From Verrucomicrobiota bacterium (GTDB taxonomy: Bacteria > Verrucomicrobiota > Verrucomicrobiia > Limisphaerales > J093), in contig JAKLFY010000002.1 of assembly GCA_022710935.1 (NCBI GenBank), positions 62,001 to 126,000 on the forward strand: a stretch of DNA of 64,000 nucleotides, read 5' to 3'. Positions 395 through 56,375 of this stretch are shown piece after piece (within the stretch, counting starts at the first letter, position 1; every line of letters starts with the position of its first letter). The translations under genes were made by a program, and so were the position numbers. The notes under the pieces were generated by a model. That model had not been told where the DNA came from and ran no database searches. It saw only the letters and a program-made list of their open reading frames with translations.

Positions 395-416
395 GTCGGC
401 TTTATGCCGGAATGAT

Positions 417-442
417 GACTTTATAGCTACAGACTAGAAGTA
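417..442. promoter_or_regulatory. Candidate controller-protein operator (two C-box-like sites)
   Basis: Two GACT-started half-site pairs lie 15 bases apart: GACTTTATAGC at 417 and GACTAGAAGTA at 432. They sit 23-48 bases upstream of the XRE start. Known C-boxes have the form GACT-N3-AGTC in tandem about 16 bases apart. The match here is imperfect but in the expected place. Confidence 0.4.
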
Positions 443-758: not shown

Positions 759-778
759 CCGCGCTCACGTGAGCGCGG
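759..778 (-). terminator. Perfect 20-base palindrome after the DUF5703 gene
   Basis: CCGCGCTCACGTGAGCGCGG is an exact inverted repeat. It begins 11 bases beyond the stop codon of the minus-strand DUF5703 gene. It has no spacer and no T-tract, so it may act as a Rho-type or processing hairpin, or as a protein-binding site. Confidence 0.4.
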
Positions 779-789
779 CGACCGACACC

Positions 790-3723: not shown

Positions 3724-3768
3724 GGAGTGTGCGAACTGGACTGAGCGGCATGAATCAACAACGCCGGG

Positions 3769-5985: not shown

Positions 5986-6032
5986 GGTTCGACGGGTTCG
6001 GGGCAGATTTCATCCATTGAGGACATAGGCGT

Positions 6033-7388: not shown

Positions 7389-7548
7389 AGCAGGGTGCTT
7401 GGCTCGTGCATGATCGAGTTCATCAGACATGGCGCATGGGCGCCGCATCGGCCGGCAGTCTCGCGTTCGGCTGCCCTCACCGCAAGCCCCAATGCCCGCG
7501 CCCGGCCGCCGCCGGCTGAAGGCAAAGGGCGTTGACGGTCCGGCGCGT

Positions 7549-7569
7549 CATGATAGTTTACCTATCATG
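7549..7569. promoter_or_regulatory. Inverted repeat over the antitoxin start: candidate autoregulatory operator
   Basis: CATGATAG (7549-7556) and CTATCATG (7562-7569) form a perfect 8-base inverted repeat with a TTTAC spacer. The right arm contains the antitoxin start codon. Phd/VapB-type antitoxins usually bind such palindromes at their own promoter. Confidence 0.6.
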
Positions 7570-7812
7570 AAAACCGCCACGGTTGCCGATTTGCGGAACA
7601 AGTTCGCCACCGTCTCGAAGTGGATTCAGGATGGGCAAGCCATCACGATCACGAAGCGAGGACTCCCCTTTGCCACGCTCGTCCCGGCACGGCGGAGAAG
7701 CGTGCCGCACCCGCCGATTGACCGGCTGGCCCGGCTACGCCGCATGTTCCCTGGCGGTCCGGCCAGCGGTGATGTGCAATCCGTGATTGACTACGACCGG
7801 GGGAATACATGA
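7567..7812 (+). CDS. Type II antitoxin, Phd/YefM family
   Basis: An 81-residue protein starting at the ATG at 7567. The N-terminal half is the classical Phd/YefM DNA-binding fold (MKTATVADLRNKFATVSKWIQDGQ, then ITITKRGLPFATLVPA). The basic/proline-rich C-terminal half should bind and neutralise the PIN toxin encoded next. The stop overlaps the toxin start in an ATGA. A longer upstream reading frame exists, but it would run through the operator palindrome and has no family resemblance. Confidence 0.85.
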   Translation: MKTATVADLRNKFATVSKWIQDGQAITITKRGLPFATLVPARRRSVPHPPIDRLARLRRMFPGGPASGDVQSVIDYDRGNT

Positions 7813-8279
7813 TCGCCGAGACCTACATTGACACCGGAATCATGGTCAAGAGCTACGTGTTCGAGGCCGATTCCCCCGCGGCCATTGCCATCATCGAGGC
7901 AGCGGGCGAACCTCTGATCTTCTCCCATGTTCACGCTCTGGACATACCCAACGCGATCCGCCTGAAGCGATTTCGTGGAGAGATCACGGCGGGCGAAGAA
8001 ACGGCGGCGGTCCGGGCTTTCCGGGCGGATGTGGACGCGGGAAGGCTGGCCCGGCTCGACTATGACTTGGCGGCGGTCTTCATCCGGGCGGAGGCGCTGT
8101 CGGCCAAGCACTCCGGCGGCATCGGAAGTCGGAGCCTTGACCTGTTGCACGTGGCCGAGGCCTTGGAAGCCGGTTGCACCGCGTTCGCCTCTTTCGATGA
8201 CCGGCAACGCAAGCTCGCCGCCCTGGCCGACCTGAAACTCATTCCCGCCAAGCACGTCGCACCCGCCACGGTTCGCTGA
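7809..8279 (+). CDS. PIN-domain toxin, VapC-like ribonuclease
   Basis: A 156-residue PIN-domain protein. The acidic metal-binding residues can be read as Asp8 (YIDTG), Asp45 (HALDIPNAIRL, where most VapC proteins have Glu), Asp111 (RSLDLLHVAEA) and Asp130/131 (FASFDDRQ). VapC toxins cleave tRNA or rRNA when freed from the antitoxin. The 4-base overlap with the Phd-type antitoxin gene is typical of a coupled toxin-antitoxin operon. Target RNA unknown. Confidence 0.87.
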   Translation: MIAETYIDTGIMVKSYVFEADSPAAIAIIEAAGEPLIFSHVHALDIPNAIRLKRFRGEITAGEETAAVRAFRADVDAGRLARLDYDLAAVFIRAEALSAKHSGGIGSRSLDLLHVAEALEAGCTAFASFDDRQRKLAALADLKLIPAKHVAPATVR

Positions 8280-21337: not shown

Positions 21338-21517
21338 GCCCCTGTGCCCGGCCACAGGGCTGGGGCGGACTATTACCCGGACGCTATCGAGGCCATTGAT
21401 TACCTGACCTCCCTCAAGACCCGGAACTCGTGGGTTGTGGGAAAACCGCTAAGGAATCGGTCGATCGTGTGTCATACTCATGGACCAGCGACATCCACGA
21501 TCCGAAGAAGCCACGCT

Positions 21518-24500: not shown

Positions 24501-27500
24501 GGCCGGGCACGGCGCTGACGTTTAGCGCGTCGCTCGACGGCGAAAACGTCACGGCGACCGAATCGGTGACGCTGGCGCGGCTGGGCTTCGGCATCGCGGC
24601 GAAGCCGAGTCAGCCGGTGGTCATCGCGGGCGAGCCGTTTGATCTGAAAGTCACCACGACCGGTGCCGACGGCAAACCGACCAGCGAGACTCTCAAGATT
24701 GCCGTGCTGCGCCTCGAGAAGGCCAAGACCAATCTCGTCCTCGCGTTGCTGCCGTCGAGCGAAGGCCCCGGCCCGCAGCCCGCCGAAGTCTCGGTGTCGG
24801 AGTCCGAGCTCAAGACCGACGCCGCCACGGGCGAAGCCACCGTGCCGCTCAAGCTCGAACAAGGGGGCATTTACCGGCTGCGCGCCACCGGCACGGATCG
24901 TTTCGGCCAGACCATCACCCACCAGTGCCAGGTCGAGGTCTCCGATGCCACCGACGCGACCAAGCTCCGCCTCTTCGCCGAGACCGCGACGCTCAAGGTC
25001 GGCACGACAATCACGGTGCGGCTGCATTCGCGGATGGAGAAGGGGCTCGCGCTGGCGACGTTCGAGGGCGAGACGATTCTGCGGCACCGGATCCTCGAAC
25101 TGAGGAAGGACGACAACGACATCGCGGTGGACGTGGGCCACGACCTCTTCCCGAATTTCCGCCTGGCCGTCGCCGCGATGGACGGGCGTGAACTGCGGAG
25201 CGCGGCGAAGGACTTCACGGTCGAGCGCGAACTCAAGGTCGCGGTCAAGCCGCTCAAGGAGGCTTTCGCGCCCGGCGAGGAAGGCAAGATCGAGATCACG
25301 GTCACCGACCAAACCGGCATGCCGGTCGAGGCGGAGTTGAGCCTGGCGCTGGTGAACGAAGCGCTGTTCGCCGTCGTTCCCGACACGCTCACGCCGATCC
25401 TGGATTTTTTCCAGAAAGACGCGCGGCGTCACGCGGAGTTCCACCTCGGCGCGACATGCGCCTTTCGCTATCCGGGCAAGACGCGGCCGGTGTCGAAGGA
25501 GATCGTGGAGGAAAGCAGTCGTGTGCTGCGGGTGCAGGCCGAGGCGGAGACACTGGACGAATTGCGCCAGCAAATGGTCGTCAACGCACCGGCACCGGCT
25601 CCCACTTTGGTTCCCGCCGGCGGGCGGGTCGCCGGCTCATCCGCGGCCCGAGGTGTTGTGGCCCTTGGCGACGAGGCGGCTTTTCGTGATGGCGACCGTG
25701 TGCAGGCGTTCTTCGCCCGGGCCGACGCCAGTGGCAAGCAGGCCATGCCGGAGTCAGGTGCGCTTCGCAGTCTGAGCCTGAAGCGTGAAGAGGCGCAGGC
25801 GCCGCGGCGCGAGATCCAAGGCGAGGGCCGTTGGCTGCCTGCGATCGTGACCGGCGCTGACGGCAAGGCGGTGGCCACGGTGCCCATGCCGGAGACGACG
25901 ACGGCGTGGCGGTTGACGGCACACGGCTGCACGGTCGAAACGCTCGTCGGCCAGGCCAAGGCCGAGACGCTGACGCGGAAGGACTTCTTCGTGGAACTCA
26001 AGACGCCGCCGTTTCTGCGCGAGGGCGACGAGCTCCGCGCCGTGGGGCGCGTTCACAATCTCACGGATTTCTCCGGCCCGGTGACGCTCAAGTTTCGCCT
26101 GCTCGATGCGAAGGACAAGACCAGGGTGCTCGCCGAGCGCGAAAAGTCGGTTGAAGTCAAAGCGAACTCCGGCGTCGAGGTCACGTTCGACGCGGTGACC
26201 ATGCCGGCCACGCTGGAAATCTCGACCGAACTGACCGGCACCGCCGGGACGAATCGCGACGCGCTGAGTCTCGACCTGCCGGTGAAGCCGTGGGGATTCC
26301 AATACGTCGCTCACGCCGGCGGCACGACCGACGCGGACACGGCGGCGGTGGTCGGACTTTCGGACGAGCGGACGTATTCGTCGCTCTGGATGAGCGTTGC
26401 GATCGGGCCAAACGTGCGCACCGCCGTGCTCGACCTGGCGCTGCGGCGCGGTTGGGCCGGCCCGTGCGACGCGATGGCCCGGCTGAGTCCGCCCGGTTGG
26501 GGCGACACGCCCGCGAACGATCTGCTCGCCGCCGCCGCGGCGCTCCGCTACGCCCAAAGCGGCAAGGTGGACGAGACCTACTCGCGCCAACTCTCGGCCC
26601 GCGCCCGGGCGATGGTGGCGTCGTTGGTCGCCAGCCAGGCCGCCGACGGGAATTGGGGCTGTCAGTCGCTCGCCCACCTCACAACGGCCCGTGTCTTCTG
26701 GGCGCTGATCGAGGCGCGCAACAGCGGCATCGTCGTGAACAAGGACACACTCGACAAGGCCGCGGCCGCGTTGCTCAAGCAGTTCGAGGCGTGCGACGCC
26801 GACGACAACGACAGCAAGGCGGTCATCCTCCACGCGCTGTCGACCGACAAACGCGCCGACTTCGCGCATTGCAATCGCCTCTACCGCGACCGCAATACGC
26901 TCGGCAACTCCGCGCTCGCTCATCTGGCCCGCGCGTTCTTCAACCTCGACCGCCGCGAGATCGCCGGGGAATTGGCCGGCTTGCTCGAAGGCAAAGTGAG
27001 ACTCGGCGGCGACAGATCGGTCCTCTGGGAAGGCGGCTGCAAGACGATCTGGTTGAACGACACCGACGAAACCACCGCGATGGCGCTCCTGGCGCTCGCG
27101 GAAACGAAGCCCACCGCCAAAGTCACCGCCGGCGCCGCCGATGCGCTCCTGCGGGCGCATGGCTGCTTCGGCTTGCGGTCTTCGCGCGCTCACGGTCCAG
27201 CCGTCGCCGCGCTGGCGACGTTTTTCGGTCAGGGCGTCCAACAATCGACCGACGTGGAAATCGCTGTGGTCGTCAACGGCAAGGAAATCGGCACGGCGAA
27301 GAGCATCGCCACGCTGGGCCAGCATTTGCTGCCCGTGGCCAGTGGCTTGCTCAAGGCCGACAAGAACGTCGTCGAGTTCAAAATGAAGGGGCGCGGACGC
27401 TACGCCTACGCCGCGACGCTGTTCGGCTTCTCGCCGGACGTGAAGGCGTCCGGCCCGGAGGTCACGCCCTGCGCGGAAATTGTCGAGCAGATGCACGCCG

Positions 27501-29620
27501 AACTCGAGTATCGCGGGCGCCGCATCGGGGCCGGCAGTTCCTCGCCGGTGAAGAACCTCGAAAACGGCCAGCGCGTGCGCATGTCCTACCGCACGCACCG
27601 CGGCTATCGCGGAGACGGCCACCGGTATTCGCTCGAAATCGCCCTGCCGCCGGGCGCGCGCCTGGATGAGTCGTCGCTTTCCACGGACCAGAATCTCATC
27701 ACCGGCAAAGAGATCACCGACTCGACGATCACCCTCTTCTTCAACCGCTGGTTCTCGTCCGTGAACTTCGAACTCACCGGCTACTCGCCGGGCAAGTTCC
27801 GCGTGTTGCCGCCCGTGATTCGTGAGTTGGGCGATCCTGCGTTCATCAGCGTCGGCCCGGTCACGGAACTCACCGTGCTCGCCGCGGGCGAGGAGTCCCC
27901 CGACGCTTACCAGATGAACAACGGCGAGCGCTTCGCCCTCGGCAAGTGCTGCTTCGACGACGGCGACCATGCCACCGCGCTCGAGCACCTGGCGCAACTG
28001 CACACGAGCGACCCGCGCCACGCCGAGAGCGAGCAGGCGCGGATGCTGTTGTGGATTTACACCAGCCCGAAGTTCTACGACGCCCGCAAGATCGTCGATT
28101 TGTTCGAAGTGCTGCGCGAGCGCTATCCGCAGTTGGAGATTCCGTTCGAGAAGATCCTCGTCGTGGGCCGCGCCTACGGCGACATCAGCGAGTTCGAGCG
28201 GTCGTGGCTGGTCTATCGCGCGGCCATCGCGGCGAGTTTCAACAACGACTCCGGCATCAGCGCGGTCCTCGAGGACGCAGGCCGCTTCCTCGGCTCGATT
28301 GACTTCCAGGAACGCGTCTGGCTCGAGTACCCGGACACGGCGGAGGTGGTGTCGAGTTACTTCGCGCTGTCGCAGTTGCTCGACCAGAAGGCGCCCAAGG
28401 CGCACGCACTGCCGAAGGAAGACGGCGTGCAGCCCGAGCGCATCGCCATGCTCAAGCGCACGGCGGACATGCTGTTCGCGTTCCTCGCGATGTATCCGAA
28501 AGACCCGCTGGCCGACAACGCCGGCTTCAGCCTCGCGAACTGCCTGCTGACGCTGAAGAACTACCCGCTCGTCGTCGCGCTGGGCAACGAGTTCGCGAAG
28601 AGGTACTCGGAGAGCCCGCTGGCCCCCAGCTTCCAATACATGACCGCGCTCGGCCTGTTCTGGCAGAACAACCATGCCGACGCCCTCGCCGCCGCGAAGG
28701 TCGTGGCCGACGGCGACAGCAAGGATCGCGACTTCGCCCGCTACATCGTTGGTCAGATCTACCACGCCGAAGGCAAGCCCAAGGAGGCCATCGATTGGTA
28801 CGCGAAGGTGAAGCAACTCTACCCCGATGCCGCCGAAGCCATCGCTTACTTCGAGAAGAAGAGCATCGCCCTGGACGAGGTGCACGTGATCGCGCCCGGC
28901 CAGCCAGTGGAAGTGACATTGAAATATCGCAACATCAAGGAAGCTTCGCTGCAGGTCTATCGCGTGGACTTGATGAAACTCTACCTCGAACAAAAGAACC
29001 TCAGCGCCATCACCAGCGTCCAACTCGCCGGCATCACGCCTGAGCTCGAGCAGACGACCGCTCTAGGCGACGGCATGGACTACGTCGAGAAGGAGCGCAC
29101 GGTCCCGCTGGCATTGAAAGACGAAGCGGCCTACCTCATCATCTGCCGCGGCGACGATCTCTTCACCAGCGGCATGATCCTGATCACCCCGCTGAAGATC
29201 GAAGTGCAGGAGGACACCACCAGCGGACGCGTCCGCGCCAACGTGCTCGACACCGCGAAGGGCGGCTATCGTCCCGAAGTCCACGTCAAAGCCATCGGCA
29301 GCGCCGACAAGGAGTTCCGCGGCGGCGAGACCGACCTGCGCGGCCTGTTCATCGCCGACGCGATCCGCGGCAAAGCCACCGTCATCGCACGCGAAGGGGA
29401 GTCGCGGTATGCGTTCTATCGCGGAGAGAGTTGGCTTGGCGCGCCGTCGCGTGCCCGCCCCGCATCCGCCCCGACACCGGCGATGCAGCAGCAGTCGTTC
29501 GATTTCCGAGGCAACCTGGATGTCCAGAGCGGGGTGATCCAGGAGTCCAACCGCGAGCGGTTCAACCTGCAACGCCGCCAGGCCCCGAGCAAAGGCGTCG
29601 AAGTCAAGAAGGCCTTTTGA
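21518..29620 (+). CDS. Giant alpha-2-macroglobulin-family protein flanked by TPR arrays
   Basis: The ATG at 21518 gives 2700 residues with a signal peptide (AATAAFIFCLTVCLGA). TPR-like helices fill residues about 30-620. A macroglobulin-like domain (LKLRNIEKCTFRLHTIDLQAYF) lies at about 635-800. MG2 (GYLYTDRPAYLPGETVSLRGILREV) is near 816. The A2M core (RWLPAIVTGADGKAVATVPMPETTTAWRL, then FFVELKTPPFLREGDELRAVGRVHNLTD) is near 1436. A helical thioester-domain-like region begins near 1645, but the GCGEQ thioester motif is absent; the corresponding place reads GWAGPCDAMARL. A second TPR set (about 2130-2430) and a second copy of the first macroglobulin-like domain (KYRNIKEASLQVYRVDLMKLYLEQ, about 2466-2635) close the protein. 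It probably acts as a periplasmic protease trap or envelope-guard protein. Confidence 0.88.
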   Translation: MSAQRDSLTLAMRQVAATAAFIFCLTVCLGATEPSQLDPLRAEMRAEHREQALALADKLIAAEHAQADEAHYLKAVALFNAKKFAEAAAAADQLAAAFPKSDWRHKATFLKAQALVERKQFQPAAAIYQNEAARLLAAERKQELVGVIVQFADKLAAKPDSNMPDPPQPDFQKAYNLYGKALGLEISRDLRDDLLFKKSRAIQQAGNVGQAVQDFQAYLTEFDPAWTGPAGSGTARLPMQNPPPAGKHIAMARYRLAESQIQAGNLAAGRMELEDLLKRVDKPSAASDALKAELETVEGAKLPAEIRWLMVESYFRQSDAAAGGPNTVAQQAKQTIGNTGGLPSTDATLYVLRDGDLDAALKSCRDYLAALPEGSRAVRAAWMIAEANQTAGRADDAIEAFREFIAGQGFRLPDGEEALRFDEELRAAPATHRANLKMRAVFRVGTILNQQKKRTEAIATWQSYVKDFPNGPQWSDSQNAIIDAEFQMGMDALAEQNETLALRRFEAFLRAHPLDRSAPRILYIFGAVPEAKARSLEEARGDRASIEASYRQAIDEWSKLVSKYPQSAEARSALMKSAGIHEEKLGEFEKALQIYRKLVVDFSFGEASAAIARLTRKSLELSAERTFRTREKPVVKLKLRNIEKCTFRLHTIDLQAYFRKMHGITGVEGLDVSLIQPDKTWDLKPEGYAKYKPFEQDVEIPFPGSEPGAFVVTAGDDDWESTVLVLRSDLEVIVKSSRREVLAFVQNMLTGQPVADADILVSDGKAVAATGRTGGDGVFKAPLESLKDLNDVRLFALGTGHAASFNLGLSGLRLSSGLTAKGYLYTDRPAYLPGETVSLRGILREVRDTGYAVPENSEFKVSITDPQGRLLSEQTVKVSRFGTFDSTLTLPAAAASGPYVIAAHQERKGREPLHFQGGFEVLEFKLEKIKLAMEFPRRVWFRGETIEASLHAAFYWGEPLAGRPVRCALPDGRSQTVTTDAEGKAKLSFDTTGMRPGTALTFSASLDGENVTATESVTLARLGFGIAAKPSQPVVIAGEPFDLKVTTTGADGKPTSETLKIAVLRLEKAKTNLVLALLPSSEGPGPQPAEVSVSESELKTDAATGEATVPLKLEQGGIYRLRATGTDRFGQTITHQCQVEVSDATDATKLRLFAETATLKVGTTITVRLHSRMEKGLALATFEGETILRHRILELRKDDNDIAVDVGHDLFPNFRLAVAAMDGRELRSAAKDFTVERELKVAVKPLKEAFAPGEEGKIEITVTDQTGMPVEAELSLALVNEALFAVVPDTLTPILDFFQKDARRHAEFHLGATCAFRYPGKTRPVSKEIVEESSRVLRVQAEAETLDELRQQMVVNAPAPAPTLVPAGGRVAGSSAARGVVALGDEAAFRDGDRVQAFFARADASGKQAMPESGALRSLSLKREEAQAPRREIQGEGRWLPAIVTGADGKAVATVPMPETTTAWRLTAHGCTVETLVGQAKAETLTRKDFFVELKTPPFLREGDELRAVGRVHNLTDFSGPVTLKFRLLDAKDKTRVLAEREKSVEVKANSGVEVTFDAVTMPATLEISTELTGTAGTNRDALSLDLPVKPWGFQYVAHAGGTTDADTAAVVGLSDERTYSSLWMSVAIGPNVRTAVLDLALRRGWAGPCDAMARLSPPGWGDTPANDLLAAAAALRYAQSGKVDETYSRQLSARARAMVASLVASQAADGNWGCQSLAHLTTARVFWALIEARNSGIVVNKDTLDKAAAALLKQFEACDADDNDSKAVILHALSTDKRADFAHCNRLYRDRNTLGNSALAHLARAFFNLDRREIAGELAGLLEGKVRLGGDRSVLWEGGCKTIWLNDTDETTAMALLALAETKPTAKVTAGAADALLRAHGCFGLRSSRAHGPAVAALATFFGQGVQQSTDVEIAVVVNGKEIGTAKSIATLGQHLLPVASGLLKADKNVVEFKMKGRGRYAYAATLFGFSPDVKASGPEVTPCAEIVEQMHAELEYRGRRIGAGSSSPVKNLENGQRVRMSYRTHRGYRGDGHRYSLEIALPPGARLDESSLSTDQNLITGKEITDSTITLFFNRWFSSVNFELTGYSPGKFRVLPPVIRELGDPAFISVGPVTELTVLAAGEESPDAYQMNNGERFALGKCCFDDGDHATALEHLAQLHTSDPRHAESEQARMLLWIYTSPKFYDARKIVDLFEVLRERYPQLEIPFEKILVVGRAYGDISEFERSWLVYRAAIAASFNNDSGISAVLEDAGRFLGSIDFQERVWLEYPDTAEVVSSYFALSQLLDQKAPKAHALPKEDGVQPERIAMLKRTADMLFAFLAMYPKDPLADNAGFSLANCLLTLKNYPLVVALGNEFAKRYSESPLAPSFQYMTALGLFWQNNHADALAAAKVVADGDSKDRDFARYIVGQIYHAEGKPKEAIDWYAKVKQLYPDAAEAIAYFEKKSIALDEVHVIAPGQPVEVTLKYRNIKEASLQVYRVDLMKLYLEQKNLSAITSVQLAGITPELEQTTALGDGMDYVEKERTVPLALKDEAAYLIICRGDDLFTSGMILITPLKIEVQEDTTSGRVRANVLDTAKGGYRPEVHVKAIGSADKEFRGGETDLRGLFIADAIRGKATVIAREGESRYAFYRGESWLGAPSRARPASAPTPAMQQQSFDFRGNLDVQSGVIQESNRERFNLQRRQAPSKGVEVKKAF

Positions 29621-29829: not shown

Positions 29830-32800
29830 CTATTCCAACAACAGAATCCGGTAGAACCGGGTTTCAACGGGCGTGCCGGAATCCCAGGTAAAAGCTGTGT
29901 CGGTAACTGCCGTGATGGGGGTGCCGACGTTGTTCCATCCGGCTCCTCCCAGCCCATCGCGGCACTGCAGTTGGTATTGTCTGCCGGGAACACTCTGCCA
30001 AGTGAGTTTTTGGTCCGTTTGCGTGGACAGGCACTCGCGCAAGATGAAAACAGAGGCTCTATTGAGCGGATCGGTGCCTGCCCGAACCTCCAAGCCATCC
30101 ACCATGGTATCGCCATCTGAGTCGGGTTTGGCGGGATCGGTGTGAAAGACGGACACTTCGTCGAAGTCGATGAGACCGTCGTGGTCAGTGTCAAACGCGG
30201 AGAAGTCGGTTAAGTTCGTAACCGGAAGACGAATCTCGTTGACCTTAAGCTCAAGCAGACTCAAGGCAACAGGCTCCGAACCAGAGAACTTTACGAGCAA
30301 CAGCGGGCCGTTGAAGGCCTTCGGCTGTGCCGAGGCGAGACCGATCCGAAGGCAACCGGGAGGATTTGTGTTGACCGCGAGAGAAAAACCCGTGTCGGGG
30401 CCAGGAAACACACCCAGGACCGAGCGATTCGTGGGACTGAAACTGATCACTGTATCCACGGCGCATCCGTCCGTGTTCGTTGTCATCAAAAGCAATCGGT
30501 AAGAGCGCTCTCCATCTGCGACGACCGGAGGGCTGTCAAACGCCACCACACAGCCTGCTGGAGAGAAAAACCTCGGACCGGCCTCGGGCGGACCCGGAGG
30601 CGCCCAGTTGCCGGACACATCCCCGATGAGCACTGCAGTGAAATCCTGGGCACTTAGGTCACTGTTCAGCAAGCCGTAGGAACGAGTTCCGGGCACGAAA
30701 TCCCACACCTTGCCGGCGCCCGGAAATGGCCCTTCGATGAGACCCACCGCCTTCTCCAAGATGTGGGCGGCATCCATAGCTGACACGGTGCCGTTGCGGT
30801 TGACATCGGCAGCCAAAAACTCGTTGGGAGAGAGCGTGAGCAGCCCGGCAGCCGCCTGCAGGACTAAAGACGCGTCGTAGGCACTGATTGCGCCCACGTC
30901 GTTGGTCTTGGACACAGTCAGGCTGTAGGCGCCGGTGGGGACATTTGTGAACGAAAAGGAACCGTTCGTGGTCGAGGTCGTGGAAAACGCTCCGCTGCCC
31001 ACCAGTGCAAGATCAGCACCAGGAACTGCGCTGCCCCCGGTGAAATAACTGACCCCGCCATCGAGCCTGAAGAATCCATTGACGGTGAAAGCACCGTCGC
31101 TGCAGGCGGCGGCAATAGCCCCGTCGTTGAGCGAGAGGCTCGAAACACTGAGACTCGTTGAGGCTGGAGGCACACCCACCACATTGAACTTAAGAACGGC
31201 CAGGGAGCCGCTGCCGGTAACCCCACTACCGCTGGCGAGGGTTAACACGATGTTTCCGGGAATGCCGACATTCGCCGACACCGCCCAACCCGCGGTCAGC
31301 GAACCTACCCGCACACTTTGAGCGGAGAGGACGCTGGAATCGAAAGCGATTGTGGCGTCCACGGCACGCAGGCCATCCACGTTCGCCGCGGATAACGCCA
31401 ACTCCACCTGGGTGCCGGCGTTTCCGTTGGTGTTGGGCATCGAGACCACCACGCCCGTGTCCTCAAAACGGAATGCGTTCAACAGCGTGCTTTGTGTGCC
31501 ATTCGTGTTGATGACAGTGACATCGACCATCGCAGGATAGTGCGGCGGCGTCAGGCACGTGAGTTGATTCGCGGTCAATAAAACCACATTCGTGGATAAG
31601 GCGCCGCCAAACAAAACGCCGATTCCGGGCTCGAACATCATCCCGCTGAGGGTGACCACAGTCCCGCCGGATGCCGAACCACGATTGGGTGTCACGGAAC
31701 TGAGCGTCGGCACGTTACTGACCTGCACCAGGTGCGGCAGCTCGGGGGTGCCGCTGAAGACCTGGCTGATACCGTCACTCGCGATCAGATAATACTGAAC
31801 ACCCGGAGGTTGAACATCAAAGCCTGGGATGCTCGCAGTCCAGTCATTACTGGAAACATTGATCATTGAGACACTGGCGTAATCAGATCCGCCGGTTGAG
31901 AGCCGATGAAAGAGAGTGACGGTCTGGACCCTGACGTTGTCTGTTGCGCTGGCAGTGATGCGCAAGCCGCGAGCAGGCGGAGCGCTGGTCACGGGCGCAT
32001 GGGCCATCACCGGCGGAATCGTGTCAAGCGCTGCCGCGGAAGCGAGGTTGGAAGGCTCCGATTCCGCCATATCGGTCGTGAGCACCGTAAACCTGTAGAA
32101 CAGTGGAACGGCAGGAACCACGTTCGTGTCGCTGAAAACCTCGCTGCCGGGGGGAATGACAGTGTCATTGAGCTTCAGCCACGGCCCGTTGGTGCCATCC
32201 GATCGATACAAATTATAGCCCGCCAACAAGTCGTAATCGTTCTGCTGCCAGGACAAGCGGATGGCACCCTCCTGGCCACTGGCCTGCAGAGTCATGGCAG
32301 CAAACCCCATTGTGCGGACTTCGAACCGGATCCGCCCGACATCATAACCGGAAATGAGCCATGGGTCGTCGGCAGCAACAGCACCGGAAATACGCATCAG
32401 TTGGTAACCATCTCCAGTAACTGGCGTTATCCACGCAGAGCCCTGCCACGTCCTCGCAGTCGTCCACCCACTCGTGAGCGCATGGAAATCCGCATCGCGG
32501 GGGAGAACCGAAAAATCCGTGTGTGGCGGGCTCGGACCGAAGGTGACAAAGGGCTCTACGTTCGTGTTCATGTCACGATTGAACCTCACGGCGAACTCCA
32601 AACGTCCAGCACTGACTTGCGGCACAGTCTCCGCGGACACTTCGCCAATCAGCACTTTATCCGCGAATGGGTATGTCGAGGAGAAACCACCCGTCGGAGC
32701 AGGCTTATAATCCGCTTCCGCACTCATAAAGTCATCGTTATAGTCCACAATTGCATGATCAATGAGCGTCTCGCTCGCCGTGCCCCAATAATTGGAATTT

Positions 32801-35800
32801 AGCGACGAGTAGCTGACGAGCCTGGCGCCATCCATGAAGGGGCTGAGAGTGACGGGAGCGTAGAAGCGCATCCAATGACTTACGTTTGGGTCCCAATATG
32901 TGCTCAGGAAAGCGTTGTACCTCAGATCGCCCAGTGAGCGCGGTCGGACGTAGTTAAGCACTTGCCCGCTTCCCACGGCGGCATTGAGCTGCGTTTCGGT
33001 CCAAACACCAGGGAGTTTCAAAATAAACGCAGGTCCCCCGGCGTAAAGGGCGCCACTCAAATAAGCACCAAATGCCTCGTTGTTTCGCCAGGCGCCATAC
33101 CAGCTTGGCACGCCTCCCGTAGCGTCATACGTGCTGAAAAGAACCACGTTATCACTGCAAGGGAGTGATGCGGCCGGGTAAGCAGGCGCCCAGTTCGCAT
33201 AATTCACTGTCGTGCCATCTAGCCAGTGATACGCACCGGGGTGTCCGTCATCCGTCAGCCCAATAAGGCAGCTAAAGCCGACCCCGGGTTGAGCGTAGAT
33301 GCTCCAAGTCTGTTGATTTACATAAGCTTCTAAAAACTGCTGCTCTTGCTGATCGGTAATGCTGGCAACATGGCCGCCAAAGTACTGCGCGATCAATTCC
33401 GCTTGCTGGAGGTTGCTGAACTCGACTGGCAAGATAGCGTAGGTCTGGTTGTTTCGAGTCACGACATGAGAGATTCCACACCAGCCGGACCCATCGTTTA
33501 TGGTGCCCCAGGTTGTTTTACCAAATATGTTATTAAAGACTCCCCCAAACGCCCTTTCCATGATCGTCCATGAAGTGTTGAGACTCAGCGGGCGTATGTT
33601 TTCGTTATCCTGGAGGAATGTGCAATTCACGATCCGCGGGGTATATGCCGCATGCGAAGGAGCTAACCAGCCTGCGTCAAACAGACAACGGTTAAAGCAC
33701 CGTGCCGAAAGAGCGCCGCCACCACGCAGCTTGTGAAAAGCGGTATCGGAAATGTAATTGGCGGTGATGGTTGAAGCACCAAAGTCCCAATCGAAATACG
33801 CATGGGCGATAGTGTTAAAGCCGCGCAAGGCAGGATTCCGAACTTTGACATACGCCATATCGGCGCTGCCCGCTTTGACCGTCTGTGTCTCTGCCTGGAC
33901 TTCAATTTCTACAACCTGGCCCGCCACCAGATAAGAGGGAAACAAGTTGACCGGCTGGTCAGGAGTGCCTTGAACGACCAGCCTGCCACGCACGATTATG
34001 TTCCCGGCTTGTGGTCCAGGATTGTAGGGATCGTCGCTGATTCCACCCCACTGAACCTGAGTGCCAGCCGCAATCGTAAGCGTTGCGCCCGATTCGATTA
34101 GCACAGGACCCGGAATCATCCAGTACTCGTCCGAGGAAAGAACCGTGTCTGTGCTAATAATCCTGGGTACGTTTTTGCCGCGCTGAACGACGTAGTTGAA
34201 CCGGCTTACCCGAGTGTAAGGACCTGGATTGCTTGGATTCCAGCCGTCTTCGAACTCGATCGTGAGTTCGAAAGGGATCACGTGGTCATTCGGACAATTG
34301 GTTGCGACCTGAAAAACAAACGGGCGCTCCACTCCGGTTATAACACCTTCGTTGTTATAAATAAAACCATTGTCCTCGGTATTGAATGGCCCGATATTGC
34401 CGTAGCTCACTCTATTCGTGATAAACGTGACGTAGGGATCATTGGATTCTGCTCCTTCGGCATGTGCGGCCAAAGTTGCCACTACGTTCTCCGCTTCTCC
34501 CGAACGGTTCATTACCTCAATCGCTAGACCGATGGTCTCACCGGAGTCCACCCGTCCGTCCACATCGTTCCGCGGGCTGATGCCCTTGTCGTCGAAAAGC
34601 CAGCTTTCCAGCATTGTAACACCCGGTTTAGGCAATTCGGACAAAGCCTTGAATGCGTTCACAACCATTACGCCTTGAAAATCGTCCCACCCGCTGGAAA
34701 ACAGGGCACCCATCAGAAACCGCGATGAATAAATGTCGCGCTGCCAATAGAACGAACGCATCAAGGCAGCTATGCCTGAAACGATGGGCGCCGCCATGGA
34801 GGTGCCGCTCCATGCGGCGTATCGGTTTCCGGGCAAAGTGCTGTAAATGCTCTCACCGGGAGCGGCCATGTCATAACCATAATTCGAAAACCAGGTTTGC
34901 GAGTCCTGGAATGGCGGAGGGTTGTTTGCCATCACCCCATGGACCATAGGCAGAGCGGCTGGATAGAAGGGATAATCGTATGAATAGAGTCCATCATTTC
35001 CCGCAGCAGCAACGAGGACGGCGCGGTTAAGGGCCACCTCGAGGGCGTCGATTTCAATCTGGGAGCGCTGGTAACCTCCAAAGCTCATGTTGACCACCTC
35101 CGCTCCGTTATCCACCGCGTAAAGAATCGCCTCGGAAATGTCCGTAGTCGTAAGGTTCCCCGAATACTGGGCCGCACGCACGGACATAATCTGCACGTTG
35201 AAGGCTGTGCCTACACCGCCCAGGTGATTGAAAGCCGTCGCTGCAATGATGCCGGCAACGTGCGTCCCGTGACCGTAATAGTCCGTCGAATCGCCGGAGT
35301 GGCTGCGAGCATCAGAAACCACACTGCCCCCGTGAATGTCATCAATAAACCCGTTGCCGTCATCGTCGATGCCGTTGGCAGCGATCTCTCGCGGGTTGGC
35401 CCACATGTTTCCGACCAACTCGGGGTGAGAGGCGTCTACACCGCTGTCAATGACCGCCACGACGACGTCATGGCTCCCGCCAACTGAAACGCCGTTTTGT
35501 TTGAGATAGTTCCACGCCGCTTGAGCTCGAACCACAGCATGGTGCCATTGGAACCCTATGTCTGGGTCGGTACTAGCATCGGGGAGCCCGGTGATAGGCG
35601 GATCGATGATTTGGGCAAGCCCACGTTCGTAAACCAACTCAGCGCATTCCACTGCCGGATGAGATTCGAGCTCTGAGAGAGCCCGTTTCACCTCAGCTTC
35701 CACCGGCAGCTCGACCTTACACCAACGCAGGAGCGCTTCGCGTTTGCTCTGGTCCACTCCTGAGGTGGTTTTTGCCTTGGGCTTCAGTCCAAAGGCGGCA

Positions 35801-36168
35801 CGGAACGCCGGGCTGAAGGCTTTGACAGCATGATTGCTCAAAAAAGCGCCGAATTCCGAGTTTCTCCCGAGTTGACCACGGATGGCTTTGTCAGCCCCGG
35901 CCATTTGCTTAAGCTGCTTGGCAGTGGCCGAATCGCTTTTCAGTTTGACCGCGATCTGCCCCGGCACCGTGCGCGTCGGCGGAGGTTTCGAGCGCAACGC
36001 GCCTTGTGCGCCGGAACTGGCGTTCGTCGTAAGGGAAAACGGGGCCACCGACACGGCGTTAGTTGGCTTGTTTGCGGGCAGTGGTCGAAGCCCGGCTTGG
36101 GCGGAACTGCCGGCGAGCAAAATCAGAGCTGCGCTCAGGTACAGCTGCTCACAGAAAAAGAGCTTCAT
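29830..36168 (-). CDS. Secreted subtilase with C-type lectin, TIG, cohesin-like and dockerin-like domains
   Basis: A 2112-residue protein with a signal peptide (residues 1-25). The S8 catalytic residues are Asp241 (VIDSGVDASHPEL), His300 (GHGTHVAG) and Ser457 (WSGTSMAAP); AAAGNDG holds the oxyanion Asn. Later parts are a C-type-lectin-like domain at about 905-1045 (AELIAQYFGGHVASI, YHWLDGTTVNYANWAPAYP), fibronectin-like segments, an IPT/TIG domain at about 1486-1570 (SSVTPNRGSASGGTVVTLSG), a cohesin-like domain at about 1571-1690 (VDATIAFDSSVLSAQSVRVG), a dockerin-like calcium loop near 1780-1815 (AADVNRNGTVSAMDAAHILE) and DTDHDGLIDFDE-type calcium repeats near 1990-2035. GC content is visibly lower than in the neighbours, which suggests a different origin. 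It is probably surface-located or released. Confidence 0.88.
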   Translation of the reverse strand: MKLFFCEQLYLSAALILLAGSSAQAGLRPLPANKPTNAVSVAPFSLTTNASSGAQGALRSKPPPTRTVPGQIAVKLKSDSATAKQLKQMAGADKAIRGQLGRNSEFGAFLSNHAVKAFSPAFRAAFGLKPKAKTTSGVDQSKREALLRWCKVELPVEAEVKRALSELESHPAVECAELVYERGLAQIIDPPITGLPDASTDPDIGFQWHHAVVRAQAAWNYLKQNGVSVGGSHDVVVAVIDSGVDASHPELVGNMWANPREIAANGIDDDGNGFIDDIHGGSVVSDARSHSGDSTDYYGHGTHVAGIIAATAFNHLGGVGTAFNVQIMSVRAAQYSGNLTTTDISEAILYAVDNGAEVVNMSFGGYQRSQIEIDALEVALNRAVLVAAAGNDGLYSYDYPFYPAALPMVHGVMANNPPPFQDSQTWFSNYGYDMAAPGESIYSTLPGNRYAAWSGTSMAAPIVSGIAALMRSFYWQRDIYSSRFLMGALFSSGWDDFQGVMVVNAFKALSELPKPGVTMLESWLFDDKGISPRNDVDGRVDSGETIGLAIEVMNRSGEAENVVATLAAHAEGAESNDPYVTFITNRVSYGNIGPFNTEDNGFIYNNEGVITGVERPFVFQVATNCPNDHVIPFELTIEFEDGWNPSNPGPYTRVSRFNYVVQRGKNVPRIISTDTVLSSDEYWMIPGPVLIESGATLTIAAGTQVQWGGISDDPYNPGPQAGNIIVRGRLVVQGTPDQPVNLFPSYLVAGQVVEIEVQAETQTVKAGSADMAYVKVRNPALRGFNTIAHAYFDWDFGASTITANYISDTAFHKLRGGGALSARCFNRCLFDAGWLAPSHAAYTPRIVNCTFLQDNENIRPLSLNTSWTIMERAFGGVFNNIFGKTTWGTINDGSGWCGISHVVTRNNQTYAILPVEFSNLQQAELIAQYFGGHVASITDQQEQQFLEAYVNQQTWSIYAQPGVGFSCLIGLTDDGHPGAYHWLDGTTVNYANWAPAYPAASLPCSDNVVLFSTYDATGGVPSWYGAWRNNEAFGAYLSGALYAGGPAFILKLPGVWTETQLNAAVGSGQVLNYVRPRSLGDLRYNAFLSTYWDPNVSHWMRFYAPVTLSPFMDGARLVSYSSLNSNYWGTASETLIDHAIVDYNDDFMSAEADYKPAPTGGFSSTYPFADKVLIGEVSAETVPQVSAGRLEFAVRFNRDMNTNVEPFVTFGPSPPHTDFSVLPRDADFHALTSGWTTARTWQGSAWITPVTGDGYQLMRISGAVAADDPWLISGYDVGRIRFEVRTMGFAAMTLQASGQEGAIRLSWQQNDYDLLAGYNLYRSDGTNGPWLKLNDTVIPPGSEVFSDTNVVPAVPLFYRFTVLTTDMAESEPSNLASAAALDTIPPVMAHAPVTSAPPARGLRITASATDNVRVQTVTLFHRLSTGGSDYASVSMINVSSNDWTASIPGFDVQPPGVQYYLIASDGISQVFSGTPELPHLVQVSNVPTLSSVTPNRGSASGGTVVTLSGMMFEPGIGVLFGGALSTNVVLLTANQLTCLTPPHYPAMVDVTVINTNGTQSTLLNAFRFEDTGVVVSMPNTNGNAGTQVELALSAANVDGLRAVDATIAFDSSVLSAQSVRVGSLTAGWAVSANVGIPGNIVLTLASGSGVTGSGSLAVLKFNVVGVPPASTSLSVSSLSLNDGAIAAACSDGAFTVNGFFRLDGGVSYFTGGSAVPGADLALVGSGAFSTTSTTNGSFSFTNVPTGAYSLTVSKTNDVGAISAYDASLVLQAAAGLLTLSPNEFLAADVNRNGTVSAMDAAHILEKAVGLIEGPFPGAGKVWDFVPGTRSYGLLNSDLSAQDFTAVLIGDVSGNWAPPGPPEAGPRFFSPAGCVVAFDSPPVVADGERSYRLLLMTTNTDGCAVDTVISFSPTNRSVLGVFPGPDTGFSLAVNTNPPGCLRIGLASAQPKAFNGPLLLVKFSGSEPVALSLLELKVNEIRLPVTNLTDFSAFDTDHDGLIDFDEVSVFHTDPAKPDSDGDTMVDGLEVRAGTDPLNRASVFILRECLSTQTDQKLTWQSVPGRQYQLQCRDGLGGAGWNNVGTPITAVTDTAFTWDSGTPVETRFYRILLLE

Positions 36169-52066: not shown

Positions 52067-55000
52067 ATGAAAACAAGGAACATCTCCCAAAGCGTCTTGA
52101 TCGGCGCGCTCGCCTGGCTGGGAATCGGCCAGGGCAATCTGGCGCAGTCGGCTGAGATCGCGAATTCGATCACGGAATTCTCCGGCAACCAGGGCCAGAA
52201 CGGCTGGTTCCACGGCTATCGTTACTTCTATGACGGCCTCACCGTCGACTACGACGTATCGACGGAGTTCCTCCCGTTCGCCGGCGGGGTGGGCCAGGGG
52301 GATTGGGACGGCTTCGGCCAGCAGTGGACCGGGAGCGCCTGGGACCTGAACACCTCGGGGGCGCCCTGGACATATCTGGCGGCCGAAGGGGTTCATCCCA
52401 ACGGCATCAACAACGGCGAGGAGCATTGGGTCATCCGCCGCTGGACAGCGAGCGAACTGGGCGGCAATACCTGGCTGGGCGTCCAGTGGAACGTCCGCAA
52501 GGAGAACCTCAACGGCGCGGGCGTGACCGGCGCCCTGCACGTCAACGGCGTGCGTGTTCAAAGCGCTGCCGTGGCCGGCAACGACGGCGTTGGAGTCACG
52601 CAGACCTACTGGGTCGTCGCGAAATCCACCGACGTTTTCGACGTGATTCTCAGCCCGGTGGGCCCGAGCGGGGACACAGGCGACGGCGCGGATGGTTCGT
52701 TCACGTGGATGGTGGTGACCGCCACGGCTGACACCGATGGCGACGGTCTCCCGGATGCATGGGAGGAGGTTTACTTCCCGGGCGACCTCACCAAGCTGAG
52801 CGGCGGCGGGGACTACGACGCGGACGGGCTCAAGGACCTTGCCGAACTGCAGCGCGGCACCGATCCGACCAAGTCCGACACCGATGCCGACGGCCTGGTC
52901 GATGGCGTCGAGACGGACACGGGCACCTATGTGAGTCCGACCGACACCGGGACCAGCGCGATCCGGGCTGATACGGATGGCGACGGTCGCACCGACGGCG
53001 ACGAGGTCAATGGCGATCCGAAGACCGATCCCACCGACCCGGACAGCGACGACGACAACTACAGCGACGGTTCGGAGGTCGGCTCAGGCCATGACCCGAA
53101 CGACGGGACCAACAACCCCGACACCACGTGGATCGCGCACTCGAGACTCGAGTTCAGCACGGACGGCTCGCAAGGAGCGAATGACTGGTACGGCGGCTAC
53201 CGCAACTACACGGCCGACGGCGGCGGAATCAACTACAATCCCGACACCGCCTTCATTCCTTTCACGCCCGATGTCTGGACCGGCGCGGGGTGGGATCTTG
53301 CCCCGAGCACCGCGCCCTGGACCGAACTCGGTGCCGAGTCGACGCATCCGGCCGGCGCATCGCCCACGCACTGGACGGTTCGTCGCTGGGTGGCTACGGA
53401 ACTGACGCAGACCACGCCGCTGGCCCTCCGCTGGCACGTCCGCAAATCCAACGTGAGCTGCGGCAATGGCGTGACGGGCGCCCTGTACATCAATGGCGAG
53501 CGCATGGACGCGGTCACAAACGCCTTCGACAACGGCACGGGCTTCACACGCACCTTCTTCGCCAATGTCGAGGTCGGCGATAAGATCGATCTGATCCTCA
53601 GCCCCCGGGGCACGGACAACGGCGACGCCGATGGCTGCGACGGAAGCGCCAATTGGCTCGTGGTCGACCCGACCATTCCGCCCAACCCGAAGCAGCCGGA
53701 CGGCTCGCCCTTCATCCCGGTGGGCGCCGGCGACACCGACGCCGACGGCATGCCGGATGCGTGGGAGGAGATCTACTTCCCGGGTGACCTGACGAAACTC
53801 ACCCTGGACGGCGACTATGACGCCGATGGTTTGAAAGATCCGGGCGAATACGCACGCGGCTCTGATCCGACAAACCCCGACACGGACGGCGACGGCCTCG
53901 GCGACCTGGTCGAGACCGGCACCGGCGTGTACGTCAGTCCGACCGATACGGGCAGCAGCCCCACCAAGACGGACGGCGACGGCGACGGCATTGACGATTA
54001 CGCCGAGGTGACCGGCGTCCCGCCGACCGATCCGAACAAGGCCGACACCGACGGCGATGGATTCTCGGATCTCGCCGAGTTCGAGTGGGGCACGAACCCT
54101 GTCGACCCCGCCGACAATCCGCTGGCCCAGGTGATCGCCAATTCCGAAAAGGAGTTCTCCGGCACCCAGGGGCAGGACGGCTGGTACAACGGCTATCGGA
54201 TCTACACCGACGGAGTCAGCACCGTCGATTACGACCCGAACGTCGAGTTCATTCCGTTCGATGAATGGATGTGGACAGGCGCCCTTTGGGACCTGGATTC
54301 GGGCGGTGCGGCGCCCTGGACGACGATCGGCGCGCTCGATCTGCATCCCAACGGCATCAACAACGGCGAGGAACACTGGCCCATCCGCCGCTGGGTTGCC
54401 GCCGAGGTCACCCAGACCATCCCGGTCGCGCTCATCTGGAATGCGCGCAAGGGCAATGCCAACCCAACCGGTGTGACCGGATCGCTCCATGTCAATGGCG
54501 TCCAGGTGGACCACCTCACCATCTCCGGCACCGACACCACCGGTCAAATCCGGCGTTTCTACGTCAACCTCAAACCGAACGACATCGTCGATCTCGCCTT
54601 GACGCCCGAAGGTCTGAATGGCGATCGGGGCGACAGCTACGACGGCTCGATCACCTGGCTCTGGGTGGACAAGAAGATCCCCAAAGAACCGCGCCAGCCC
54701 GATGGTTCGCTCTTCATCCCCATCGACGCGAAGGATACCGACGCGGACGGTCTGCTCGACTTCTGGGAATTGATCTACGCCGCCGATCTCACTGTGCTCA
54801 CGGGCACGGGCGACAACGACAGCGACGGAGTGGCCAACACGGTGGAATTGGCTCGCGACAGCAATCCGCTGGAGTCTGACACGGACGGTGACGGCCTGGG
54901 CGACGCCGTCGAGACCAAGACGGGGACGTTCGTCGGCGCCGCCGACACCGGCACCGATCCGCGCAAGGCGGATACCGATGGCGATGGGCGCACGGATGGC

Positions 55001-55942
55001 GAGGAAGTCAACGGAACGCCCAAGACCAATCCGCTTCTGTTCGATACGGACGGCGACGGTTTCAGCGACGGCGCCGAGGTCGCGTCGGGCCACGATCCGA
55101 ACGATCCGGATCACAATCCAAACACCACGGTGATCGCCGATTCGATCGTCGAGTTCACCACGACGGGCGAGCAGGGCGTCAACGGCTGGTTCTACGGGTA
55201 TCGCAACCTGACCGCGGATGGCGGCGCCCAGAACTACAATCCGGACACGGCCTTCATTCCGTTCCCCGCGGAGGTCTGGACGGGCGCGCAGTTTGATCTG
55301 AACACCAGCGGAGCGCCCTGGACCGAACTCGGTCGGGAGACCACCCATCCGAATGCCGGGACCGGCGACACGCACTGGACCATCCGCCGCTGGGTGGCCA
55401 CCGAGTTGACCAAACTGACGCCGCTGGGCGTCCGTTGGCATACGCGGCACGTCAACGTGGCGTGCGGCGGCAACGGCATCACCGGCCTGCTGTACGTGAA
55501 CGGCGTGCTCCAGGATTCGGTGGTGATCGCCTTCACGGACGGCACCGGGGTCATCCGCACCTATTACATCAACGCCCAACCGGGCGATAAGATCGATCTC
55601 GCGCTCAGCGCCAAGGGAACCGATGGCATCGAGACCGACGGTTGCGACGCTTCGGCCAACTGGTTCCAGGTCGATCCGACCATCCCGCCCAACCCGAAGC
55701 AACCGGATGGCACGCCGTTCATCCCGGCCGGCAGCCAGATCACGGTGACCACCGCTTACAACGCGGCCCAAAGCCAGCTCACGTTGAACTGGAATGCGGT
55801 CGCCGGATCCACCTACACGGTCTGGGGGACCATGGATCTCAAGGCGTGGGTCCAGGTCCAGACAGGCATTGCCACTGGCAGCCACACCATCCAGATCGGC
55901 GCGACCCCCGCTTATCAGTTCTATCGCGTTTCGCAGCCTTAA
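52067..55942 (+). CDS. Secreted 1291-residue modular protein: four repeat modules joined by Ca-binding repeats
   Basis: A signal peptide (residues 1-27) is followed by four related modules of about 190 residues. They start near residues 31 (EFSGNQGQNGWFHGYR), 357 (EFSTDGSQGANDWYGGYR), 690 (EFSGTQGQDGWYNGYR) and 1023 (EFTTTGEQGVNGWFYGYR). Modules 1 and 3 share HPNGINNGEEHW; modules 2 and 4 share NYNPDTAFIPF and DPTIPPNPKQPDG, giving an ABAB order. Between modules lie thrombospondin-type-3-like DTDGDG calcium repeats. The last 70 residues form a fibronectin-like sandwich (QLTLNWNAVAGSTYTVWGT). The modules look like carbohydrate-binding or jelly-roll domains, but I cannot name the family. No catalytic motif is seen. 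Confidence 0.82.
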   Translation: MKTRNISQSVLIGALAWLGIGQGNLAQSAEIANSITEFSGNQGQNGWFHGYRYFYDGLTVDYDVSTEFLPFAGGVGQGDWDGFGQQWTGSAWDLNTSGAPWTYLAAEGVHPNGINNGEEHWVIRRWTASELGGNTWLGVQWNVRKENLNGAGVTGALHVNGVRVQSAAVAGNDGVGVTQTYWVVAKSTDVFDVILSPVGPSGDTGDGADGSFTWMVVTATADTDGDGLPDAWEEVYFPGDLTKLSGGGDYDADGLKDLAELQRGTDPTKSDTDADGLVDGVETDTGTYVSPTDTGTSAIRADTDGDGRTDGDEVNGDPKTDPTDPDSDDDNYSDGSEVGSGHDPNDGTNNPDTTWIAHSRLEFSTDGSQGANDWYGGYRNYTADGGGINYNPDTAFIPFTPDVWTGAGWDLAPSTAPWTELGAESTHPAGASPTHWTVRRWVATELTQTTPLALRWHVRKSNVSCGNGVTGALYINGERMDAVTNAFDNGTGFTRTFFANVEVGDKIDLILSPRGTDNGDADGCDGSANWLVVDPTIPPNPKQPDGSPFIPVGAGDTDADGMPDAWEEIYFPGDLTKLTLDGDYDADGLKDPGEYARGSDPTNPDTDGDGLGDLVETGTGVYVSPTDTGSSPTKTDGDGDGIDDYAEVTGVPPTDPNKADTDGDGFSDLAEFEWGTNPVDPADNPLAQVIANSEKEFSGTQGQDGWYNGYRIYTDGVSTVDYDPNVEFIPFDEWMWTGALWDLDSGGAAPWTTIGALDLHPNGINNGEEHWPIRRWVAAEVTQTIPVALIWNARKGNANPTGVTGSLHVNGVQVDHLTISGTDTTGQIRRFYVNLKPNDIVDLALTPEGLNGDRGDSYDGSITWLWVDKKIPKEPRQPDGSLFIPIDAKDTDADGLLDFWELIYAADLTVLTGTGDNDSDGVANTVELARDSNPLESDTDGDGLGDAVETKTGTFVGAADTGTDPRKADTDGDGRTDGEEVNGTPKTNPLLFDTDGDGFSDGAEVASGHDPNDPDHNPNTTVIADSIVEFTTTGEQGVNGWFYGYRNLTADGGAQNYNPDTAFIPFPAEVWTGAQFDLNTSGAPWTELGRETTHPNAGTGDTHWTIRRWVATELTKLTPLGVRWHTRHVNVACGGNGITGLLYVNGVLQDSVVIAFTDGTGVIRTYYINAQPGDKIDLALSAKGTDGIETDGCDASANWFQVDPTIPPNPKQPDGTPFIPAGSQITVTTAYNAAQSQLTLNWNAVAGSTYTVWGTMDLKAWVQVQTGIATGSHTIQIGATPAYQFYRVSQP

Positions 55943-56023: not shown

Positions 56024-56030
56024 CCCCTTG

Positions 56031-56128
56031 GGAGTTGGGAGTTCGGAGTTGGGAGTTCGGAGTTGGGAGTTCGGAGTTGGGAGTTCGGAGTTGGGAGTTC
56101 GGAGTTGGGAGTTCGGAGTTGGGAGTTG
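56031..56128. repeat. Tandem repeat, 14-base unit x7 (14 heptamers)
   Basis: GGAGTTGGGAGTTC is repeated six times exactly (56031-56114) and once with the last base changed (56115-56128). The unit is itself two heptamers, GGAGTTG and GGAGTTC. Confidence 0.95.
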
Positions 56129-56207
56129 GGGGTTGGACGTTTCCGGGTCCTGGCCGGGAGGCGCCTCGAGGCCTTGAGTCGAGTGGCGAGCGCGTTGGAT
56201 TAATTAT

Positions 56208-56315: not shown

Positions 56316-56375
56316 AGCAATCCCCAGGATTTCCGGAGCCCCACTGCCACGAACGGCGGTGGGGCTTTCTGTTTT
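56300..56375 (+). promoter_or_regulatory. leuA attenuator: antiterminator segment and intrinsic terminator
   Basis: The terminator stem is 56337-56348 (AGCCCCACTGCC) with 56355-56366 (GGCGGTGGGGCT): 12 pairs with one G-U, loop ACGAAC, then TTTCTGTTTT. An earlier segment GGCGGTCGGG (56300-56309, inside the leader frame) mimics the 3' arm and can pair with the 5' arm in 9 of 10 positions, one of them a G-U wobble. It lies 8 bases beyond the last Leu codon. A ribosome stalled on the Leu run would leave it free to form an antiterminator; a ribosome reaching the stop would cover it. Confidence 0.7.

Follow-up and report, generated by a model that had tools for sequence, protein, structure and literature searches.

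In a 64,000-nucleotide stretch of a Verrucomicrobiota genome (assembly GCA_022710935.1, contig JAKLFY010000002.1, positions 62,001 to 126,000; hereafter the window), the open reading frame at 52067–55942 on the forward strand encodes a 1291-residue protein that carries four copies of a module which, across public genomes, is mostly encoded together with LTD-CotH proteins and/or a pair of CRTAC1-like genes. This unexpected link of the module to CotH kinases and CRTAC1-like proteins is the main interest of the locus, and it is the strongest piece of context that an initial annotation of the window missed. On balance, and with slightly better than even confidence, we read the window protein as a multivalent protein of the cell surface or matrix, exported and stiffened by calcium, whose modules are glycan-binding-like and which comes from a CotH/CRTAC1-linked cassette.

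Architecture of the window protein

The reading frame coincides exactly with the span that had been annotated, and it comprises four modules of 190–203 residues (M1–M4), three thrombospondin type 3 (TSP3)-like linkers of 132–133 residues (K1–K3) and a C-terminal domain of 69 residues. The linkers had been described as calcium repeats, and all three are matched by TSP3_bac (PF18884) at 56.8 bits against a cut-off of 25 (E = 1.9e-15, 8 stretches); M4 is followed by the different 69-residue domain, with no fourth TSP3 linker. As members of this family, the linkers would be expected to bind calcium.

The motifs by which the modules had been recognized are present: a W-rich motif (WTGSAWDLNTSG in M1) and, in all four, an HW-IRRW-type motif (HWVIRRW, HWTVRRW, HWPIRRW and HWTIRRW) and a GVTGALHVNG-type strand (GVTGALHVNG, GVTGALYING, GVTGSLHVNG and GITGLLYVNG). 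In all six module pairs the alignment greatly exceeds those of 100 shuffles (z = 28–55), and identity is 66.7% for M2–M4, 53.1% for M1–M3 and 46.7–50.0% for the four cross pairs. Third codon positions of the copies agree at 46–59%, and the copies are therefore old.

That the modules alternate in two subtypes, as first proposed, is borne out both by these identities and by a tree of 47 modules, which were hand-picked from a 110-row set and joined by nine modules of loci L100, L101 and L103, and which include three-module relatives. In this tree M1, M3 and the relatives' first and third modules form one clade (A; 95/89, ten rows), and M2, M4 and the relatives' second modules form another (B; 98/87, ten rows), with M1 of L093 and M1 of L103 falling outside the A clade; the relatives therefore read A-B-A and the window protein A-B-A-B. 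The further claim that one A-B pair was duplicated as a block is compatible with the alternation, but the linkers, at 57.6–60.9% identity, do not alternate, the relatives read A-B-A, and the trees conflict. In the 110-module tree, from which L037 (the same record as L094) and rows more than 80% alike were left out, the M2 and M4 modules from three genomes cluster together (100/92), M3 groups with L038 m3, L093 m3 and L042 m2, and M1 groups with the M2/M4 modules (94/85); an approximately unbiased (AU) test on the 110-module data did not reject an M1+M3 clade of the window and L094 (p-AU 0.42). Because of this conflict over M1 and M3 we did not adopt a single block duplication. The fourth module, of subtype B, may have arisen with a block or alone; the subtypes themselves are supported.

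Conservation was examined in 92 aligned modules (alignment A3: the 4 window modules and 88 of 98 deduplicated modules, with two further tandem L063 genes and two cut modules left out). W22, P76, R88 and G116 (M2 numbering) are invariant, and 22 more residues, many of them polar or aromatic, are kept in at least 83 modules; these include D170 and the near-invariant H75 and D173 (90 each), R87 (89), W89 (88), W84 (86) and H83 (83). A first candidate site would consist of P65-W66-T67, H75-P76, H83-W84, R87-R88-W89, N124-G125, G152-D153, D156, D170 and D173. For annotation, the family signature starts with HPNG and, after a short gap, HW-x-[IV]-RRW, followed by NG, GD-x-x-D and finally D-G-x-D.

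The module as a domain family

The initial annotation had recognized no named family for the modules, and none emerged here: no Pfam or NCBIfam family exceeded its cut-off for them. In the Pfam scan of the full protein, TSP3_bac was the sole family above cut-off (DUF4183 reached only 13.4 bits against 25.1). Like the bacterial TSP3-repeat surface proteins CglD and MtsD of myxobacteria, the window protein has Asp-rich calcium-repeat linkers, but it falls far below the NCBIfam cut-offs for both (70.3 bits against 400 for CglD and 39.5 against 800 for MtsD), and both matches lie in the linkers. When the 92 modules were scanned singly, the matches were scattered, with no family found in more than two modules and best E-values of 0.0074 (Pfam) and 0.046 (NCBIfam). 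Searches of solved structures by sequence matched no module, nor did any carbohydrate-binding module (CBM) profile or solved CBM; the only match of the profile search, staphopain (1cv8, E = 0.054), was taken as chance, and 8dj2, from a single-sequence search (E = 0.0051), covers a TSP3 linker and not a module. Searches of the open-licence PubMed Central (PMC) literature listed no description of the module, nor of any cassette of the CotH/CRTAC1 kind from these phyla. We regard the module as a real unnamed domain family within an otherwise familiar kind of protein, and one that would annotate many "hypothetical" giant secreted proteins.

Scanning a single genome of each species yielded 44 public loci with 138 modules of good length, under record titles of Verrucomicrobia(les) and Planctomycetota, once of Kiritimatiellia and once of "uncultured bacterium". 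The family, newly described here, is thus one of Verrucomicrobiota, Planctomycetota and Kiritimatiellota, with 1 to 5 copies per protein. Its distribution is patchy, not universal. Among the own genome and its relatives, 14 of 58 genomes match; in the phylum, 4 of 288 (own included) match at 1e-20; and in the order, 123 of 293 match at E ≤ 1e-8, 30 of them at ≤ 1e-20 (counted from the result table). Because the genome scans with alignment A3 scored only so many candidates in each genome (11 for most), their copy counts are minimum values.

The remaining matches in the order form a diverged tier that covers about module positions 16–165. The loci examined from it (L014, L024–L027) are large frames with a module-like stretch, and such relatives are widespread in the order; in L014, from the own genome, residues 46–170 of the frame at 1363–3375 keep HP...RRF, and there is a weak match to a PD40 propeller. 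A link of this tier to hydrazine synthase was discarded, as no solved structure matched L014. The module profile otherwise found, in the own genome, the four window modules, one further strong copy (C252) and one weak copy. The strong copy, the only other one in this genome, lies in a 2631-residue frame (354–8246, reverse strand, of L095) that combines LTD, one module and CotH; in L013 the module starts right after a YLNGFPIAQRN stretch, as if inserted into another beta domain. In the planctomycetote loci L063, L072 and L074 there are two or three tandem genes with 3–5 modules each.

Gene partners of the module

Frames in the loci were labelled by one-sequence HMMER searches (E ≤ 1e-5); the queries were a CotH and an LTD stretch from L056 and two FG-GAP genes from L044. 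Pfam identifies the L056 stretches as LTD and CotH, and the L044 genes as FG-GAP_3 and as UnbV_ASPIC with AhpC-TSA and TPR. We label these FG-GAP/ASPIC genes CRTAC1-like, a name that PMC12758564 also applies to such proteins.

The module is fused into a CotH frame at 14 of the 44 loci, and at 13 a CotH frame adjoins the multi-module gene in the same orientation; fused or adjacent, the total is 18. An FG-GAP gene of the CRTAC1-like pair lies within 1.5 kb at 17 loci. One or the other partner is thus found at 29 loci, 6 of which have both, and neither is found at 15. Where the next gene is on the same strand, the distance from stop to frame is −59 to 403 bases. Background densities were 442 CotH places in 54.8 Mb of 12 genomes (8.1/Mb; 15–64 per genome) and 229 UnbV_ASPIC places in 46.3 Mb of 10 genomes (4.95/Mb), which give a chance expectation per locus of about 6% and 2.5%, respectively. 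The probability of the observed counts by chance is 8e-7 for CotH (13/44) and 2e-16 for FG-GAP (17/44), with the loci treated as independent, though they are related.

At least four arrangements occur in separate groups: a Roseibacillus-type arrangement (L041, L054, L056–L059, L061, L062), a second one (L048, L053, L055), a Planctomycetota arrangement (L047, L075) and a divergent one (L066, L068, L069, L071). A lineage artefact therefore seems unlikely.

Secreted, kinase-like LTD-CotH proteins of Verrucomicrobiota and Planctomycetota thus carry the same module or adjoin the multi-module gene, but the window protein itself has neither domain: the Pfam scan found no CotH (PF08757) and no LTD in it. 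The own genome has 28 CotH places. The partner domains in other carriers are mostly adhesive or spacer domains (Laminin_G_3, CBM9, cadherin, Ig (Big_9) and FG-GAP). No glycosidase partner was found in the carriers scanned. CotH-type kinases are very numerous in the genomes examined, and a domain that occurs inside them and is repeated in a neighbouring secreted protein offers a concrete, testable partner; nothing on their role in these genomes was found in the open-licence PMC literature. Separately, in L043, L046, L049, L050, L051 and L080 a YdjY-domain gene and a squalene-hopene-cyclase-like gene (clusters c6 and c4 of marine Verrucomicrobiales, named from L046) lie upstream of the multi-module gene.

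Predicted fold

With 91 aligned relatives, AlphaFold2 modelled M2 as an all-beta domain with a predicted local distance difference test score (pLDDT) of 96.6 and a predicted TM-score (pTM) of 0.92. Foldseek matched this model to CBM35, CBM6, C1q-like, GITRL and MAM-bearing chains, at least 21 of them at E ≤ 0.001, and VIA-align placed CBM51 first (Z 9.2, 118 residues, 2.6–2.7 Å), with its best 50 matches mostly CBMs and MAM or C1q-like jelly rolls (Z 9.2–7.3). In VIA-align, models without a clear match commonly reach Z 7–8, and 9.2 is not far above this; we therefore limit the claim to a jelly-roll-like fold. The jelly-roll CBMs (CBM51 nearest, then CBM36, CBM61, CBM22, CBM4 and CBM35) align with the module's predicted beta-sandwich over about 110–137 residues, but there is no sequence match, identity is 6–15%, and about 60–80 residues of the module lie outside the aligned core. 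Comparison with CBM folds, which the initial annotation had in mind, thus makes these the nearest neighbours at the level of fold only. Its proposal of an adhesive or carbohydrate-binding role agrees with the predicted fold and the partner domains, although a glycan ligand remains a conjecture.

A unit of K1 and M2 was also modelled, with a pLDDT of 94.7 and a pTM of 0.84; alignment A4 comprised 3 window units and 33 of 45 others. The linker consists of short helices between loops (block means 91–98), and the model is consistent with ordered calcium loops. Among the matches listed, a fold search with this unit gave the same kinds of chain as the module alone. The confidently folded linker makes the earlier idea of a fibre plausible. 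Among viral structures, the matches were generic tail-fibre and C1q-like jelly rolls.

C-terminal domain

Ten other tails can be aligned with that of the window protein, with Y28, L36, W39 and Y64 invariant throughout, and a tail profile matches 55 places in the own genome (E ≤ 1e-3), many of them on large frames. This domain (Y.V..S.DL..W...FYR), which further secreted proteins encoded in the genome also carry, is perhaps an anchoring or sorting domain of this group. One match is the very end of another window protein, of 2112 residues (29830–36168, reverse strand), which by eye is a secreted subtilase-like protein (DSGVDASHPEL, GHGTHVAG, GTSMAAP) with TSP3-like repeats; beside its gene, at 21344–29620 on the forward strand, is a 2758-residue frame with TPR and alpha-2-macroglobulin-type domains by eye. 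Planctomycetote carriers have dockerin-like tail repeats by eye (Pfam scores 21.9 for L072 and 18.1 for L076 against a cut-off of 22.9), and the planctomycetote CotH carriers L066, L068, L069 and L071 have the dockerin-like type of tail too. Within a lineage, the module protein and the CotH protein thus tend to end in tails of one type, as would be expected if both were delivered to a common destination.

Discussion

Our preferred reading would work as follows. The protein would be exported by way of its N-terminal signal, and Ca2+ would fold and stiffen its Asp-rich TSP3-type linkers, as expected from their family. The four modules, with their predicted lectin-like jelly-roll fold, would be displayed and could together bind a surface ligand, most probably a polysaccharide, in a multivalent manner, while the C-terminal domain would anchor the protein to the cell surface or within a matrix. 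CotH and FG-GAP proteins encoded at other places in its own genome are perhaps its partners. That the module protein is mostly encoded with LTD-CotH and/or the CRTAC1-like pair suggests that the module probably serves as the common domain for docking or binding in an extracellular assembly with these proteins.

Several observations weigh against this reading. Neither a CotH nor a CRTAC1 neighbour is present at the window locus, in its congener (L037/L094) or in a family relative (L093). Both partners are missing from 15 of the 44 loci, two of which (L049 and L080) break off inside the module gene or directly behind it. These genomes are rich in CotH and ASPIC genes, and the loci are interrelated (eight from Roseibacillus/Akkermansiaceae share one arrangement), so their counts are not independent. 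One carrier, L064, also has a beta-lactamase-fold domain. Foldseek TM-scores to the query are 0.27–0.39 among the matches listed, a likeness at the level of fold only, and the jelly roll is also used by TNF/C1q-like scaffolds and by Stig-cyclase enzymes, both found among the Foldseek matches; the fold by itself is no proof of sugar binding.

The findings also hint at a surface-assembly system of Verrucomicrobiota, Planctomycetota and relatives, undescribed so far, of which the module would be the signature domain. Multi-module calcium-linked fibres, secreted LTD-CotH kinases docking by the module and the CRTAC1-like FG-GAP/ASPIC pair would together build, and perhaps phosphorylate, an extracellular matrix; this wider proposal is tentative, and we think it has a modest chance of being right. 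The Bacillus CotB/CotG-CotH spore-coat phosphorylation cluster likewise groups a CotH gene with genes for surface-layer proteins, but the window protein has no Ser-rich repeats and the coat proteins are different, so this is an analogy only. The proposed host bacteria are not known to make endospores.

The modules might instead be mere structural spacers with a beta-sandwich fold, comparable to Ig or cadherin repeats, which give a surface stalk its length and spacing and have no specific ligand. Their partners are often spacer domains (Big_9, cadherin, TSP3), their copy number varies from 1 to 5 and the fold match is generic, all of which a spacer would explain; it would not explain why conservation is so specific, with its four invariant and 22 nearly invariant residues, many polar or aromatic, or why LTD-CotH proteins contain a single module and no spacer array, and we consider a pure spacer unlikely. 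It is highly improbable that the modules are enzymes that use the jelly roll catalytically, as Stig cyclases or hinokiresinol synthase do. The Foldseek matches do include HpiC1 (TM-score to query 0.39), FilC and hinokiresinol synthase, and His, Arg, Trp and Asp are conserved, but many other jelly rolls match at least as well, a small-molecule cyclase would not usually come as four tandem copies joined by calcium linkers, and no biosynthetic genes were recognized alongside.

The gene association itself could be read in another way, with the module protein as a client or substrate of the adjacent secreted CotH-type kinase, on the model of CotB and CotG, the clients of CotH in Bacillus spores, and with phosphorylation, not sugar binding, governing surface-layer assembly. 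Both the same-strand neighbours and the fusions counted above favour this, and the stretch D-x-x-[HRYCF]-K-N ... W-D-x-D, which we take to be the CotH active site, is kept in all 24 CotH frames examined. There is also a precedent in B. subtilis, in the cotB/cotH/cotG cluster (PMC7821199). However, the window protein has no CotB/CotG-like Ser/Lys/Arg-rich repeats and no run of at least four S/K/R anywhere, 11 of the 17 loci with CRTAC1-like genes have no CotH within reach, and the window locus is among those without a CotH neighbour. A kinase client is thus quite improbable in our judgement.

Features of the window

Table 1. Features of the module gene and its 3′ side (window coordinates)
Feature	Position	Strand	Basis
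N-terminal export signal, residues 1–29	52067..52153	+	Sec-type by eye: MKTRNISQ, hydrophobic stretch, AQSA
Module M1, subtype A, residues 30–219	52154..52723	+	Alignment; 11-column insert, absent from other three modules
Linker K1, TSP3-type, residues 220–352	52724..53122	+	PF18884; 133 aa, 24% Asp, net charge −31
Module M2, subtype B, residues 353–553	53123..53725	+	AlphaFold2 all-beta model; jelly-roll CBM neighbours
Linker K2, TSP3-type, residues 554–686	53726..54124	+	PF18884; 133 aa
Module M3, subtype A, residues 687–887	54125..54727	+	Alignment, 47-row tree
Linker K3, TSP3-type, residues 888–1019	54728..55123	+	PF18884; 132 aa
Module M4, subtype B, residues 1020–1222	55124..55732	+	Alignment, 47-row tree; 66.7% identity to M2
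69-aa C-terminal domain and stop codon	55733..55942	+	Y.V..S.DL..W ... FYR pattern; alignment of 11 tails
Possible intrinsic terminator 3′ of gene, 14-pair stem	56335..56368	+	Weak: 2 such sites against 2.8 expected (shuffling)

A long antisense frame at 53084–55885 (reverse strand) looks like a shadow of the module and linker repeats. Between the module gene and the next gene, at 56028–56136, lies a tandem repeat, GGAGTTGGGAGTTC, with a period of 14, 7.6 copies and 97% matches.

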